Below are positions 55,960 through 63,428 of a DNA stretch of 64,000 nucleotides, piece by piece. How positions within the stretch are numbered: the first letter of the stretch is position 1; the number at the start of each line of letters is the position of its first letter. The position numbers and the translations under genes were made by a program. Location: NCBI RefSeq assembly GCF_039545095.1, contig NZ_BAABRS010000001.1, forward strand, positions 1,240,001 to 1,304,000. The letters run 5' to 3'. Source of the stretch: Fodinibius salicampi (GTDB lineage Bacteria > Bacteroidota > Rhodothermia > Balneolales > Balneolaceae). Under the pieces are notes generated by a model that saw nothing but the letters and a program-made list of their open reading frames with translations, ran no database searches and had not been told where the DNA came from.

Positions 55960-55988
55960 GTAAGTACCTTTTGGGAAGCAATCCTTAC
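55960..55988 (-). promoter_or_regulatory. Two-box promoter-like motif, copy 1
   Basis: Minus strand: GTAAGGATT (55988-55980), 11-nt spacer, GGTACTTAC (55968-55960). The same pair occurs at 56085-56113 and 62082-62111. Box spacing and sequence suggest an ECF-sigma-type promoter. Downstream is the small ORF at 55769-55930. Confidence 0.5.
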
Positions 55989-56010
55989 AAAAAATCTTAA
56001 GATAATTGAC

Positions 56011-56078: not shown

Positions 56079-56084
56079 TCATAA

Positions 56085-56113
56085 GTAAGTACGTTTTAAG
56101 GGCTAATCCTTAC
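56085..56113 (-). promoter_or_regulatory. Two-box promoter-like motif, copy 2
   Basis: Minus strand: GTAAGGATT (56113-56105), 11-nt spacer, CGTACTTAC (56093-56085). Directs transcription away from the LexA-like gene into the candidate small RNA at 56011-56078. Confidence 0.5.
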
Positions 56114-56151
56114 AAATTTTTTTAAAAAATATATCGATTGCCTTATATTTC

Positions 56152-56166
56152 CATAAATCGTTCATA
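56152..56166 (+). promoter_or_regulatory. Operator-like CATAAATCGTTCATA upstream of the LexA-like gene
   Basis: 15-bp sequence identical to 57147-57161 in front of the Y-family polymerase gene. It has an imperfect dyad (ATAAA-TCG-TTCAT). It ends 11 bp before the ATG, where repressor binding would block transcription. Candidate binding site of the LexA-like protein. Confidence 0.65.
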
Positions 56167-56177
56167 ACTGTATCGTC

Positions 56178-56816
56178 ATGATTACGAAAGACCTTACTAA
56201 TAAACAGTCGAAATTCTTCCGGCACCTGCTGGAATACGCTCGTGATCACGGCAACCTTCCTTCCTATCAGACAATTATGGAGCATACCTGGATCACGTCT
56301 AAGAATGGAGTTCACCAGTATTTTAAAGCGCTCTGTGATAAAAACTACCTTCAGTCAACCGGCTGGGGTGGTTATGAGCTGCACCCCTCAAAACAGTTCC
56401 TGGTTGACAGCCCGGAAAATCCTATTCCCATTCGGGGGATTATTACCGCCGGAGCCATGCAGGAGGCCGTGGATACGGATTTGGGAAGCCTGTCCATTCG
56501 GAACCTGTTCCCCCAGGCACAATCGCCGTACTGCGTCCGTGTGTCTGGGACCAGCATGGAGGAGGCCGGAATCCATGACGGGGATCTGGTAATTCTGGAT
56601 GACAGCCCCATTACGGACGGGGATATTGGTGCTATTCTGTATGATGGGCAGACCACGCTCAAAGAGATCCGTAAAAGCGACCGGCAGGTCGTGCTATACC
56701 CCAAAAGCTCCAATCACAGACCGATCATTATAGAACCCGATGAATTTGAGGAGATTCGGGTACTGGGCAAGTATATCGCACATTTTCATGATGGGAAGGT
56801 CCGGTATGTCAATTAA
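56178..56816 (+). CDS. LexA-like self-cleaving repressor (S24 peptidase)
   Basis: 212 aa. N-terminal winged helix (about 8-72: FFRHLLEYARDHGNLPSYQTI, a LexA-type DNA-binding domain). Cleavage site A91-G92 in IITAGAMQ, nucleophile S126 in GTSMEEAG and general-base K162 in TTLKEI have the spacing of E. coli LexA. Heads a DNA-damage cassette with a divergently encoded small protein, a Y-family polymerase and an SRAP protein. Could be the main LexA or a cassette-specific paralogue. Confidence 0.9.
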   Translation: MITKDLTNKQSKFFRHLLEYARDHGNLPSYQTIMEHTWITSKNGVHQYFKALCDKNYLQSTGWGGYELHPSKQFLVDSPENPIPIRGIITAGAMQEAVDTDLGSLSIRNLFPQAQSPYCVRVSGTSMEEAGIHDGDLVILDDSPITDGDIGAILYDGQTTLKEIRKSDRQVVLYPKSSNHRPIIIEPDEFEEIRVLGKYIAHFHDGKVRYVN

Positions 56817-57117
56817 ACAGTAGTTCGTCATCAAATTCGTATAGCAGAATCCATGTGATTTTGCCGCTGTCATACACCATTTCAAAGAACCGGTCTTCGG
56901 TGGTCCGTACTACAAAGTGTACATGAAGGGTATCGCCCTTCCGGGCGGCATAGGATTTGCGGATCTGGGCAATCTCAAAAATTTTCTTGTTCGCACGTTT
57001 GAAGCTTAGCGGTTCAATGCGCTTATGGGTCCAGTCCCGGCCCATGGACTCATCATCATCCTTAAATCCCCGGTATATGGCATTGACATTGATCTTTTCC
57101 TGTATAAGCGTTTGCAT
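56809..57117 (-). CDS. Unknown 102-aa protein of the DNA-damage cassette
   Basis: 102 aa from ATG 57117 (24 bp inside a longer frame). Mixed beta/alpha, with basic middle (RIEPLSFKRANKK, RKSYAARKGDTLHVHFVVR) and an acidic end (YEFDDELLFN). No family is recognised. Its stop overlaps the convergent LexA-like gene by 8 bp and its start faces the polymerase gene across the shared operator, so co-regulation is likely. Confidence 0.7.
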   Translation of the reverse strand: MQTLIQEKINVNAIYRGFKDDDESMGRDWTHKRIEPLSFKRANKKIFEIAQIRKSYAARKGDTLHVHFVVRTTEDRFFEMVYDSGKITWILLYEFDDELLFN

Positions 57118-57135
57118 GGCCCTGATTATTCGGTA

Positions 57136-57166
57136 TTGCAAAAGTACATAAATCGTTCATATAATA
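57136..57166. promoter_or_regulatory. Shared operator and promoter of polymerase and 102-aa gene
   Basis: CATAAATCGTTCATA at 57147-57161 is identical to the site at 56152. On the plus strand it falls between TTGCAA and TATAAT, 18 bp apart, as a repressor site inside a sigma-70-like promoter would. On the minus strand TACTTTTG matches the TAnnTTTG element for the divergent gene. Confidence 0.65.
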
Positions 57167-57196
57167 TAGGAGAGCTTTCATGTTAAATGCAATGCC

Positions 57197-58537
57197 ATGA
57201 GCAAAGAAATTTCGATCGATACCGGCACGTATGATGTCAACGAGAATGTGCACAAGATTACTGATTACCGGTGCGTGAGTGCCGACATGCAGCACACCTC
57301 GATCAAGGAGAGGCTGTACCTGCATCTGGATATGAACTGCTTCTACGCCCAGGTGGAGCAGCTTAGCTATGATCTGTATGGGATGCCAATATATATCGGA
57401 GGCTGGTATAAAGGCGACAAAGGCATCCCCCGGGGTATTGTGGCTACCAGCTCTTACGAAGCCCGTGCCTTTGGGGTCAAGACCGGCATGAGCGCCTATG
57501 AGGCGGAACAGCTTTGCCCCTACCTGATTGGACTGCAGGCCCACTATGAAAAATACAAGGGCGTGAGCCGGGAGATTGAAGCGGTGCTTAATGACTTTGC
57601 CATGGACGTGGAAAAGTACAGCATGGATGAGTATTTTCTTGATCTGAATTTCATGAAGGATAAGGACCGGACGGAAATCAAGGAGTACGGGGAGCAGCTC
57701 CAGGAGGTACTTTACCGGGAAACCGGACTGGTCTGCTCAGTAGGCATCAGCTATTCAAAAACCTATTCCAAGCTGGCCAGTGAATTGCATAAACCCAAAG
57801 GATTAACATTGGTCCTGAACAGTCAGGATGCACAAGATACGCTATGGCCGCTGGAACTGGATGAAGTCTGGGGCATTGGCCGCAAGCGGTATCACAAGCT
57901 GAAAGGGCAGAATATCCATACCATTGGGGAGGCCATTAACAGAGGGTATCCACCCTTTCAGGATCTGTTTGGTCCATATTTTGGTAAAATTATGTGGGAG
58001 ATGGTAGCCGGAAAGGACCGGGCAAAGGTACTGACCGACCAGCAACTGATCCCCAAGCAGCTCAACTACATGCATACCTTTTCCAACTGGTCAGATGATT
58101 TTACCCATATCAAGGGCGAGATTATGAAGGGCGTCGGCCAGCTATGCTACCGGATGCGGGGCTATAACCTACGGGCCCGGCAATACTTTTGCTACCTGCG
58201 GATTCAGGATAGCAGTAATAAGGGCCTTTCGTTCCGATTTAATACCGAAGGATTTACCAACCTTGATGATTATGTGTTTTATGAATGCATGAAAAAGGCT
58301 GCTCCCCGCATCAAGGGACTGTTAAAAGGAGGGCATACCCTGCGGGGCATTGGCGTTGGGACGGTCAAGCATGACCACTCCGGCCAGCAGGAACTATTTT
58401 TCCGGGAGGACAACCGGAAGCGCCGGTTTTGCCTGGTCCAGGATGCCATCAATAACCACTATGGTCAGCAGATGATCCAAAAAGCATCGGTACTGGATTC
58501 TGTCCCCGGAAAAACGCATTTTTTAGATCGGAGCTAA
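57197..58537 (+). CDS. dinB: Y-family translesion DNA polymerase
   Basis: 446 aa. An N-terminal extension of about 40 residues precedes LYLHLDMNCFYAQVEQ (metal-binding Asp) and YSMDEYFLDL (catalytic Asp-Glu). The fingers-thumb region with GIGRKRYHKLKGQ (HhH) and the little-finger domain (about 270-430) follow. Copies damaged DNA at the cost of mutations. The position beside LexA-like and SRAP genes and the shared operator support SOS control. There is no clear C-terminal clamp-binding motif. Confidence 0.92.
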   Translation: MSKEISIDTGTYDVNENVHKITDYRCVSADMQHTSIKERLYLHLDMNCFYAQVEQLSYDLYGMPIYIGGWYKGDKGIPRGIVATSSYEARAFGVKTGMSAYEAEQLCPYLIGLQAHYEKYKGVSREIEAVLNDFAMDVEKYSMDEYFLDLNFMKDKDRTEIKEYGEQLQEVLYRETGLVCSVGISYSKTYSKLASELHKPKGLTLVLNSQDAQDTLWPLELDEVWGIGRKRYHKLKGQNIHTIGEAINRGYPPFQDLFGPYFGKIMWEMVAGKDRAKVLTDQQLIPKQLNYMHTFSNWSDDFTHIKGEIMKGVGQLCYRMRGYNLRARQYFCYLRIQDSSNKGLSFRFNTEGFTNLDDYVFYECMKKAAPRIKGLLKGGHTLRGIGVGTVKHDHSGQQELFFREDNRKRRFCLVQDAINNHYGQQMIQKASVLDSVPGKTHFLDRS

Positions 58538-58552
58538 CTAAATCAGATAACT

Positions 58553-59227
58553 ATGTGTGGAAGATACACCTTAGACAAGGACGAGCAGGAGCTGGAAGGT
58601 TATTTTGATGCTGTAATGGAGGATTTTGAGCAGTTTGGACCGAACTACAATGTCGCACCTTCGCATACCATGCCGGTAGTGGGGCAAAACCGGGAAGGAG
58701 AGCGAACGATCCGCCCCTTCCGCTGGGGCCTACTTCCATTCTGGGCCAAAGAGGAAAAGGTCAGTTATAGCATGTTTATTGCAAAGGCGGAATCAATAGA
58801 CAGCAAAAAATCTTATAAACAATCCTTCGAGCGTCACCGGTGTCTGGTCCCGGCCAGTGGGTTTTATGAGTGGACCGGACCGAAGGGGGATAGAACGCCC
58901 TATTATATTTACCCGACCCATGAGCCGTTGTTTTCTTTTGCGGGGATCTATAACGTCTGGGAATCCCCGGAGGGCAAGAAAATACCCACGTATAGTATCA
59001 TAACGACCGAGCCCAACCAGAAGATGGCTAATCTGCACGACCGTATGCCGGTGATGCTGCTCAAGGAAGAATGGGATGAGTGGCTGGACCCGGACAACCA
59101 TAATACCAATGCTCTGAAGGACCTGTTAAACCCATTCCCGGATGATGCGATCAACTACTACCAGATTGATAAGAAGGTGGGGAATGTCCGGAATAATTCT
59201 AAAGATTTAATAGATCCAGTTGAATAA
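58553..59227 (+). CDS. SRAP (SOS response-associated peptidase) domain protein
   Basis: 224 aa. MCGRYTL exposes the catalytic Cys2 after Met removal. NYNVAPSH (Asn), SGFYEWTG (Glu) and LHDRMPVML (His) complete the SRAP site. HMCES/YedK proteins cross-link to abasic sites in single-stranded DNA through Cys2. It begins 15 bp after the polymerase gene and is probably co-transcribed, so abasic-site shielding and translesion synthesis would be induced together. Confidence 0.95.
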   Translation: MCGRYTLDKDEQELEGYFDAVMEDFEQFGPNYNVAPSHTMPVVGQNREGERTIRPFRWGLLPFWAKEEKVSYSMFIAKAESIDSKKSYKQSFERHRCLVPASGFYEWTGPKGDRTPYYIYPTHEPLFSFAGIYNVWESPEGKKIPTYSIITTEPNQKMANLHDRMPVMLLKEEWDEWLDPDNHNTNALKDLLNPFPDDAINYYQIDKKVGNVRNNSKDLIDPVE

Positions 59228-61047: not shown

Positions 61048-61977
61048 ATGAAACCGAACCTATTTCTATTATGTATCGGCTGCTTGTTGGCAGCCTCCGT
61101 TGCCAGCGGGCAAAACTATTCCGACTATGACCAACAATTTGTGGACGAGCATATCTACGAAGGTATGCCCAGCTTTGATAATATTCATATACGGCAGGCT
61201 TACATCCTCTCTTATAATCACACCCATCGGATCCCGAATTGGGTCGCCTATCATATTGGCTTGGATTACACGAATACCGTCCCGCGATATGGCATCTTTG
61301 CCCAGTATCGCACGGACTGGAACATTCCCAATCCGGTCTTCGACCACGAATATGACGGGGTGTACGACGGGGGGAGCGGTTATGCCCGCGGGCACCTGGC
61401 TCCATTTAATATATCAGGAGGCGATAGGGACGCAGACGGCCTGCTAGGGGTGGGCGATACGAACGGGGACGGCCTCATTACCAAGGAAGATATGATTGGC
61501 CGGGATCGCGAGGAATATATCGAAGACGCCGATGAAATCACCAGAGTCTATCAAATCAACCAACTCTCAAATATGACGCCCCAGGACCAAAATGGTTTCA
61601 ATGGCGGAGCAGGGATATGGCGTGACCTCGAGCGATATATCCAGGGGACCATTGTCGAGGAGCAAAAAAAAGAGGTGTGGGTGATGGCCGGTCCGGTTTT
61701 GGGTCCCGGCGAGATGGAAAAGGTAGGCCCAAAGGAAATAACCGTCCCTCCAATGTTCTTTAAAATCGTGGTACGCAATGGGGAAAATGACCTGCCGGTC
61801 GTGTTGGCCTTTCTCCTTCCGCATCACAAAGAACCCCATGGAGAGATCGAAGACTTTTTGGTGAGCGTAGATATCATTGAAGCGATGACCGGCCTGAATT
61901 TCTTTCGAGACCTTAACGAAGCTACCGAGGATTCGCTGGAGGCCACCGACACATGGATAAACTGGAATATTTTTTAG
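61048..61977 (+). CDS. Secreted DNA/RNA non-specific endonuclease with EF-hand-like loops
   Basis: 309 aa. Signal peptide about 1-21 (VASGQ). The beta-beta-alpha metal nuclease core has YARGHLAP (112-119, the D/A-RGH motif with catalytic His) and NMTPQDQNGFN (175-185, metal-binding Asn). Between them, D126-R-D-A-D-G-L-L-G-V-G-D137 and D137-T-N-G-D-G-L-I-T-K-E-D148 are two calcium-loop sequences sharing one Asp, of dockerin/TSP3/EF-hand type. Degrades extracellular nucleic acid, for nutrients or against competitors. Confidence 0.88.
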   Translation: MKPNLFLLCIGCLLAASVASGQNYSDYDQQFVDEHIYEGMPSFDNIHIRQAYILSYNHTHRIPNWVAYHIGLDYTNTVPRYGIFAQYRTDWNIPNPVFDHEYDGVYDGGSGYARGHLAPFNISGGDRDADGLLGVGDTNGDGLITKEDMIGRDREEYIEDADEITRVYQINQLSNMTPQDQNGFNGGAGIWRDLERYIQGTIVEEQKKEVWVMAGPVLGPGEMEKVGPKEITVPPMFFKIVVRNGENDLPVVLAFLLPHHKEPHGEIEDFLVSVDIIEAMTGLNFFRDLNEATEDSLEATDTWINWNIF

Positions 61978-62723: not shown

Positions 62724-63428
62724 ATGTCACTAGAATATTATTTAATTCCAAACAATATGACTGACAACCCGGATGACTACCGGGCGGTGAGTCGAAACAG
62801 TAAAAGCTATAATCTTGAGGACGTATTCAAAAACATGACCCGCGAGGGATCCACCGTTACTACAGCTGAAGCCATGGCGGTGTTCGAGGAGATCACCCGG
62901 GGTATCATTGGAATGTTGGAAGAAGGCCATGCAATCAATACGCCCCTGTTCAATATCTCATCAAGTATAACCGGGGTCTTCGAGGAAGAAGAGGATCGGT
63001 TTGATCCCAATCGGCACCAGGTACAGATAAACCTCAATTCCGGCGTGCGGCTTAAAGACCTTTCCAATACGATCACACCGGAACGGGTCGAGGGTTCCTC
63101 TCCCGTTCCCACCCTCAAATACCTGCAGGATAATATTTCCGGCACCCAGAATGAGCTGCTTACACCCGGCGGCGGCGCGCGTATTAGAGGGGCTCGGCTC
63201 AAGTACGATCATGAGGATTCCCAGCAGGGCATCTTTTTTATCCATACCGGGGATCAAACCGAGCACCGGGTGGATTTTGAACCACTGCGCAATATGCCCC
63301 AGGACCTCATCTTTACGCTTCCGGACCTGCCGGCCGGGGAATACGAGATGGAAGTACGATGCGTATTAAAGAGCACCTCAGATATACGTACGGGCAGCCT
63401 GCCTGATCTACTGACCGTAGAACCGTGA
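62724..63428 (+). CDS. HU-like DNA-binding protein with DUF4469 domain
   Basis: 234 aa. The N-terminal part (about 1-115: YYLIPNNMTDNPDDYRAV, VTTAEAMAVFEEITRGI, INLNSGVRLKDL) is the HU-related DNA-binding fold of the HU-HIG type. The C-terminal part (about 130-234: GGGARIRGARLKYDHED, LPAGEYEMEVRC) matches the beta-sandwich DUF4469. Common in Bacteroidota as a nucleoid-associated protein of unknown role. A terminator follows after a 23-bp tandem array. Confidence 0.85.
   Translation: MSLEYYLIPNNMTDNPDDYRAVSRNSKSYNLEDVFKNMTREGSTVTTAEAMAVFEEITRGIIGMLEEGHAINTPLFNISSSITGVFEEEEDRFDPNRHQVQINLNSGVRLKDLSNTITPERVEGSSPVPTLKYLQDNISGTQNELLTPGGGARIRGARLKYDHEDSQQGIFFIHTGDQTEHRVDFEPLRNMPQDLIFTLPDLPAGEYEMEVRCVLKSTSDIRTGSLPDLLTVEP

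Follow-up and report, generated by a model that had tools for sequence, protein, structure and literature searches.

Positions 56,152 to 59,227 of a 64,000-nt stretch of the Fodinibius salicampi genome (contig NZ_BAABRS010000001.1, positions 1,240,001 to 1,304,000 of the forward strand; hereafter the window) hold a four-gene cassette that encodes a LexA-type repressor, a 102-aa protein that we call P102, a Y-family DNA polymerase and an SRAP protein. We reason, at a probability of about three in four, that this is a self-contained, damage-inducible translesion cassette that would be repressed by its own LexA paralogue and be insulated from the main SOS circuit, because its operator is not common to the genome's other lexA promoters. 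An initial annotation of this DNA had tied the repressor, polymerase and SRAP genes together through a 15-bp operator, identical at the lexA-like promoter and at the polymerase/P102 promoter, and both the sequence and the comparison across relatives bear this out. All four genes proved to be real, and the features of the cassette are as follows.

56152..56166, + strand: operator copy 1, exact match to CATAAATCGTTCATA, in the lexA-like promoter, 11 nt before the lexA-like ATG
56178..56816, + strand: LexA-type repressor, 212 aa; PF01726 at 25.7 bits (cut-off 23.7), PF00717 at 68 bits (cut-off 23.3)
56809..57117, - strand: P102, 102 aa, conserved partner of the Y-polymerase; no Pfam family
57136..57165, + strand: sigma-70-like promoter TTGCAA-N18-TATAAT of the polymerase gene, consensus match only
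57147..57161, + strand: operator copy 2, exact match to CATAAATCGTTCATA, between the divergent P102 and polymerase genes
57197..58537, + strand: Y-family polymerase, 446 aa; IMS domain PF00817 at 136.6 bits
58553..59227, + strand: SRAP protein, 224 aa; PF02586 at 248.6 bits

The gene order is thus lexA-like (+), P102 (-), polymerase (+) and SRAP (+). The first two genes meet tail to tail with an overlap of 8 bp, and the SRAP gene starts 15 nt past the polymerase stop. A Pfam scan of the four cassette genes and five neighbouring open reading frames (ORFs) found no imuA, imuB or dnaE2.

The operator in the cassette and in the genome

The operator CATAAATCGTTCATA is laid out as a direct repeat, CATA-N7-CATA, with a period of 11 (DR11), and this was the top-scoring geometry in both window promoters when promoters were scored for repeat geometry. 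Copy 2 stands 29 nt from the P102 ATG and 35 nt from the polymerase ATG, inside the spacer of TTGCAA-N18-TATAAT, and covers the first two bases of TATAAT. When the lexA promoter and the polymerase promoter of the window were compared for their best 16-base match, none of 300 shuffled pairs was as good.

The genome search that the initial annotation had proposed as a check returned exactly two exact copies in 3.94 Mb, both in the cassette. Within the window, three matches with at most two mismatches were found against 0.32 expected (shuffle maximum 2), while the four matches with at most three mismatches were at the level of chance (3.05), so that only exact or near-exact copies of CATAAATCGTTCATA carry meaning. 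Near-matches in the whole genome amounted to 21, one with a single mismatch and 20 with two; this is close to the shuffle prediction (0.32 x 61.5, about 20) but well above a reversed-pattern control, which gave 3, and the two controls disagree. Nineteen of the 21 fall within ORFs of at least 80 aa, and the one-mismatch site lies upstream of a pyridoxal-phosphate-enzyme-like gene. A genome-wide regulon and chance were both considered for CATAAATCGTTCATA and rejected; no recognisable SOS gene was found downstream of any of the 21 near-sites.

Directly upstream of the lexA-like gene, the window also carries two copies (55961-55991 and 56082-56116) of an intergenic repeat, TAAGTA-N8..25-ATCCTTACAAA. 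It has 16 pattern matches at 14 places in the genome (reversed control 0; about 0 expected in the window), is present in 10 of 12 genus genomes and has no Rfam match.

Repressor and polymerase promoters match within cassettes of relatives

To place the shared operator in a wider context, each lexA promoter was paired with each polymerase promoter from 14 cassettes in which both were available, and every pair was scored by its best 16-base match; L100 was counted although its lexA lies about 2 kb from its P102. With the sequences grouped into seven recognition-helix classes, which were named after the promoters had been seen, the true pairing was the best of 5040 permutations; with ungrouped sequences, none of 100000 permutations reached the true score. 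Because related cassettes share operators, the class-level test is the one to be trusted. In those Fodinibius cassettes that also carry a lexA paralogue, the lexA and polymerase promoters have an operator in common, which varies from one cassette to another.

Repeat geometry was compared between classes of the putative recognition helix by a score that is crude and noisy. The published period-11 box is present in the lexA promoters of other Balneolota, whose helix is SPNSVTQN (DR11 best or tied in 16 of 29), and Fodinibius promoters of the S[ST]NSI[YF]QHL class carry period-12 direct repeats (DR12) of TTCAT, best or tied in 11/11. Where the helix is SENSVTQYY or S[AP]NSSVQYH, the operators are palindromes of the ATGTGTG-NN-CACACAT and ATGTAC-N4-RTACAT types, in which the ACAT half-site is kept and the left one is inverted; the inverted-repeat geometry IR10 was best or tied in five of six lexA promoters and in all six polymerase promoters of these classes. 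The operators of L082 and L077 fit none of the three geometries, and no clear site was seen in the lexA promoter of L101. The tree requires eight changes for nine labels, which is the minimum, and the palindrome clade has weak support (SH-aLRT, the Shimodaira-Hasegawa-like approximate likelihood ratio test, 24).

In the genomes searched, two such palindromes are confined to their cassettes. TATGTACNNNNRTACAT occurs at cassette promoters only, at two places each in the genus genomes G004, G009 and G010 and at one in G021, whose lexA copy differs by one base; it is absent from six further genomes. TATGTGTRAANACACATA is likewise seen at cassette promoters only; G002 and G010 have it at two places each, and eight other genomes lack it. 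Since both are found in G010, this genome would hold two private circuits in addition to a third lexA of the SSNSIYQHL class.

The cassette proteins

The window repressor combines an N-terminal LexA_DNA_bind domain (putative recognition helix SKNGVHQYF) with an S24 peptidase domain, both above their Pfam cut-offs. Its cleavage site, Ala91-Gly92, and its Ser126/Lys162 dyad are invariant in 13 aligned sequences, among them that of E. coli. The catalytic residues of the polymerase, Asp45 and Asp144-Glu145, are invariant in 11 aligned sequences. Its C-terminal tail ends in VPGKTHFLDRS and resembles, weakly, the RecA-NT motif described for such polymerase tails (PMC6511836). A profile of this tail ranked the genome's RecA sixth among 874 ORFs, aligned at the RecA N-terminal helix, which is a weak match (E = 2). 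The SRAP protein starts with MCGRY, and Cys2, the Glu of GFYEW and the His of LHDRMP are kept in an alignment of 30 SRAP sequences.

P102, listed by the initial annotation as an unknown protein, proves to be a real conserved gene and can now be described as the conserved partner of this polymerase clade with a predicted all-beta fold. An AlphaFold2 model built on an alignment of 69 sequences, which replaced a single-sequence fold (predicted local distance difference test, pLDDT, 69.4), has six strands (pLDDT 86.8; predicted template modelling score, pTM, 0.78), and P36, W89 and E94 are invariant in the 69 sequences. No convincing match to a Pfam, PHROG or PDB family was obtained. A Foldseek search (best E 0.18, none below 0.001) and a second structural alignment (best Z 5.2, cystatin/monellin-like) neither support nor exclude a relative. 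Carriage by plasmids or phages was considered and rejected, as P102 had no match in plasmids or phages and the LexA-like protein none in plasmids. In 14 Balneola/Gracilimonas-type loci (L194, L195, L198, L200-L207, L211, L212 and L214), P102 matches fall in separate stretches of an ORF of about 210 aa, as if duplicated.

A lexA-like match was obtained in 91 of 97 relatives and a P102 match in 62. The surroundings of 68 named polymerase loci (69 found, minus the distant L215) were compared. Within 2.5 kb of the polymerase, 50 of these loci have P102, in 40 of them upstream and on the opposite strand, 23 have SRAP and seven have LexA. At seven of the 18 loci that lack P102, the contig extends less than 700 nt upstream. 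No P102 was found near other Y-polymerases of the genus (0/15 loci, 1.5-kb flanks), and P102 also occurs at four Opitutales or Verrucomicrobia loci (L166, L168, L186 and L190). From these counts, P102 and polymerase look like an older unit to which a lexA gene was added mainly in Fodinibius.

From this arrangement we infer how binding, cleavage and induction would proceed. The LexA paralogue would repress its own gene and the divergent P102 and polymerase(-SRAP) promoters through its private CATA-N7-CATA operator. DNA damage would give rise to RecA filaments, which would prompt Ala-Gly self-cleavage of the repressor and so release polymerase, P102 and SRAP together. P102 would then join the polymerase as a small subunit, probably near the putative RecA-binding C-tail. 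We think it probable that P102 serves the polymerase as a small beta-barrel subunit, in the manner of UmuD', YqjX or standalone ImuB-C.

Comparison with published systems

The initial annotation held that the operator differs from the LexA boxes of E. coli and B. subtilis. This is correct, but the operator does not stand outside the known LexA boxes, since it shares the Balneolaeota direct-repeat geometry. The Balneolaeota LexA box, TTACACATATTTTWTACATA, is a direct repeat with an 11-bp period, and its SOS regulon has been published (PMC7739468). Both systems use a direct repeat of a CAT-type half-site at period 11 and LexA proteins of the same superfamily, and the published regulon includes polymerase IV/V and an SOS peptidase. 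By its geometry, the window operator is a diverged member of this known class. By eye, CATAAATCGTTCATA agrees with TTACACATATTTTWTACATA at only about half of 20 positions, and the window system differs from the published regulon in serving a single cassette instead of sites across the genome and in having a diverged paralogue as its repressor. A term search of the main text of PMC7739468 gave no mention of Fodinibius, and none of the papers searched linked Fodinibius with LexA.

Private lexA copies in mutagenesis cassettes are already known (PMC5261740, PMC8072749). In Pseudomonas putida, lexA2-imuA-imuB-dnaE2 (imuC) contains a second lexA that is encoded with, and regulates, an error-prone polymerase cassette (PMC5261740). 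The window cassette likewise has an extra lexA copy beside an error-prone polymerase; however, it is divergent where the P. putida genes form one operon, and it has P102, SRAP and, judging by its intact motifs, an active Y-polymerase in place of imuA, imuB and dnaE2. Operons that unite a lexA gene with those of a Y-polymerase and a small all-beta protein have also been reported to be associated with SRAP (PMC3765255). The window combines the same elements, P102 being all-beta by prediction, but with a divergent layout, with private operators that vary between cassettes, and with a P102-ImuB-C homology that lacks profile support. That source describes standalone ImuB-C as an all-beta domain whose C-terminal Trp is conserved and whose gene lies beside that of a translesion polymerase, and the six predicted strands, the invariant W89 and the polymerase context of P102 fit this description; ImuB-C is further described as a beta-barrel without close PDB relatives (PMC12926913), and P102 resembles this description too. 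Finally, non-canonical LexA proteins of Bacteroidetes show motif divergence linked to paralogues, and it is an established principle that motifs diverge once lexA has been duplicated (PMC8565304). The present case is similar in its paralogous SOS regulators with diverged sites beside an error-prone polymerase, whereas the Bacteroidetes proteins have CI-like DNA-binding domains and the window repressor a LexA-type winged helix-turn-helix. Unlike the cases in that source, Fodinibius has both direct and inverted repeats within one genus.

Other LexA genes of the genome and alternative explanations

Three full lexA-like genes are present in the genome, namely the window one, one on contig C2 (L078) and one on C3 (L077), together with a broken S24 remnant. 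A second P102-polymerase pair (L079; C1, 1.454 Mb) has no local lexA; in its promoter, as in the C2 lexA promoter, there is a direct repeat of period 12, and the recA promoter contains TTCACAGTATTTTTTACAGATA, a possible period-12 repeat as read by eye. On these grounds, the main LexA may be that of C2, with the window circuit separate from it. Elsewhere in the same genome, G000:C4:403187-403780 and G000:C4:56416-56673 (L080, L081) hold remnants of a UmuC-type polymerase with one internal TAG and of an S24 protein with one internal TAA, which suggests a decayed umuDC-type locus.

It is rather unlikely that C2 LexA controls the window cassette itself and that the local protein is a degenerate or minor copy. 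The L079 pair does carry the C2-type period-12 repeat without a lexA of its own, and the window LexA is fast evolving; however, the top score in both window promoters goes to a repeat of period 11, centred differently, and not to the period-12 TTACAT type, and the local protein keeps its helix-turn-helix, cleavage site and catalytic dyad. The position of this S24 protein next to a Y-polymerase could also point to a UmuD-like polymerase manager whose cleaved form binds the polymerase, or to both jobs in one protein as in UmuDAb of Acinetobacter, and its C-terminal half matches UmuD models (NF007621, 51.3 bits, cut-off 110) and UmuD' structures. Its full LexA-type DNA-binding domain and the matched operator pair make this a quite improbable main function, as do the many P102-polymerase loci that have no lexA-like gene nearby (LexA near 7/68). 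We regard as unlikely, too, that P102 acts on the LexA-like protein, as its co-repressor or modulator in the way of DdrR with UmuDAb, instead of being a polymerase subunit. This would suit the small size of P102, the divergent orientation of its gene and the operator that it has in common with the polymerase gene, and an Acinetobacter co-repressor assisting UmuDAb has been described (PMC11332147), but P102 remains beside the polymerase at loci that lack lexA (near 50/68 loci, against 7/68 for LexA). The shared 15-mer is AT-rich, extends into the -10 region of the sigma-70-like polymerase promoter and recurs once in genus genome G007 at an unrelated gene, as might a common promoter element or a chance match; this is very improbable given only two copies in 3.94 Mb, the cassette-specific matching in relatives and the absence of the palindromes from the other genomes searched.

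Several observations weigh against a self-contained circuit run by the local repressor. With all 15 bases the same in both window operators, they yield no tolerance profile. CATAAATCGTTCATA occurs in two of 12 genus genomes, twice in that of the window and once, exactly, in G007, where it lies upstream of a gatB-like ORF and where searches for the polymerase and for P102 gave no sign of such a cassette. The window repressor scores 85.9 bits against TIGR00498 (LexA equivalog), below the cut-off of 110.95, and is called LexA-type, not a certified LexA, for this reason; two of six relatives pass (L087 115.5, L115 120.8) and four do not (L078 108.7, L089 110.2, L084 97.4, L077 97.3). The window lexA also forms a long branch of unsure placement in the tree, which together with the low score makes an altered function possible. 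In the SRAP protein, residues encoded at 58769-58795 read SMFIAKAES, as compared with SMINARAES or a similar N-[A/T]-R in other cassette SRAPs; N-[A/T]-R is present in 28/28 other SRAPs with this region aligned, and we take it to be an active-site motif with a catalytic role. The initial annotation proposed that the cassette couples translesion synthesis with abasic-site protection; the abasic-site role of this SRAP is weakened by I-A-K and is uncertain.

The link between P102 and ImuB-C gives a further adverse result. With standalone ImuB-C taken as Pfam DUF6504 from its genomic context, hhalign gave a probability of 1.7% (below 1% with 9 sequences), and DUF6504 was matched weakly by 5 of 69 P102 members (best E 0.052). 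An identity of P102 with ImuB-C is not supported by sequence, the collinear pattern being one seen by eye only, and since the profile tests gave no support for homology we say only that P102 would work like ImuB-C. At nine loci, L232-L240, standalone DUF6504 proteins lie between an ImuB-like Y-polymerase homologue and a DnaE2-like gene, with a UmuD/LexA-like S24 gene directly upstream in several; these are likely imuB-C cassettes of another Bacteroidota family.

Outside the cassette, the window encodes a DNA/RNA non-specific endonuclease with a weak EF-hand-like stretch (61048-61977) and an HU-type DNA-binding protein with DUF4469 (62724-63428).

Implications for LexA circuits in Fodinibius

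Taken beyond the window, the comparison raises a broader proposal, to which we give even odds: Fodinibius genomes may host portable, mutually insulated LexA circuits, up to three of them in G010, each with its own LexA paralogue and two operators in which a CAT-type half-site is rearranged (DR11, DR12 or inverted ATGT-N8-ACAT), while P102 would add a small subunit of a new kind to the polymerase. Within a phylum or class, LexA boxes tend to be described as uniform. If the proposal is true, the orientation of the LexA half-site changed among paralogues inside one genus, and related LexA paralogues with differing geometries and their own operators would offer a natural series for the passage from direct-repeat to inverted-repeat recognition by a dimeric repressor. 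The comparison also suggests that one cell can put its mutagenic polymerases under separate triggers, and it identifies P102 as a conserved but uncharacterised partner of a Y-polymerase clade of Balneolota and some Opitutales.

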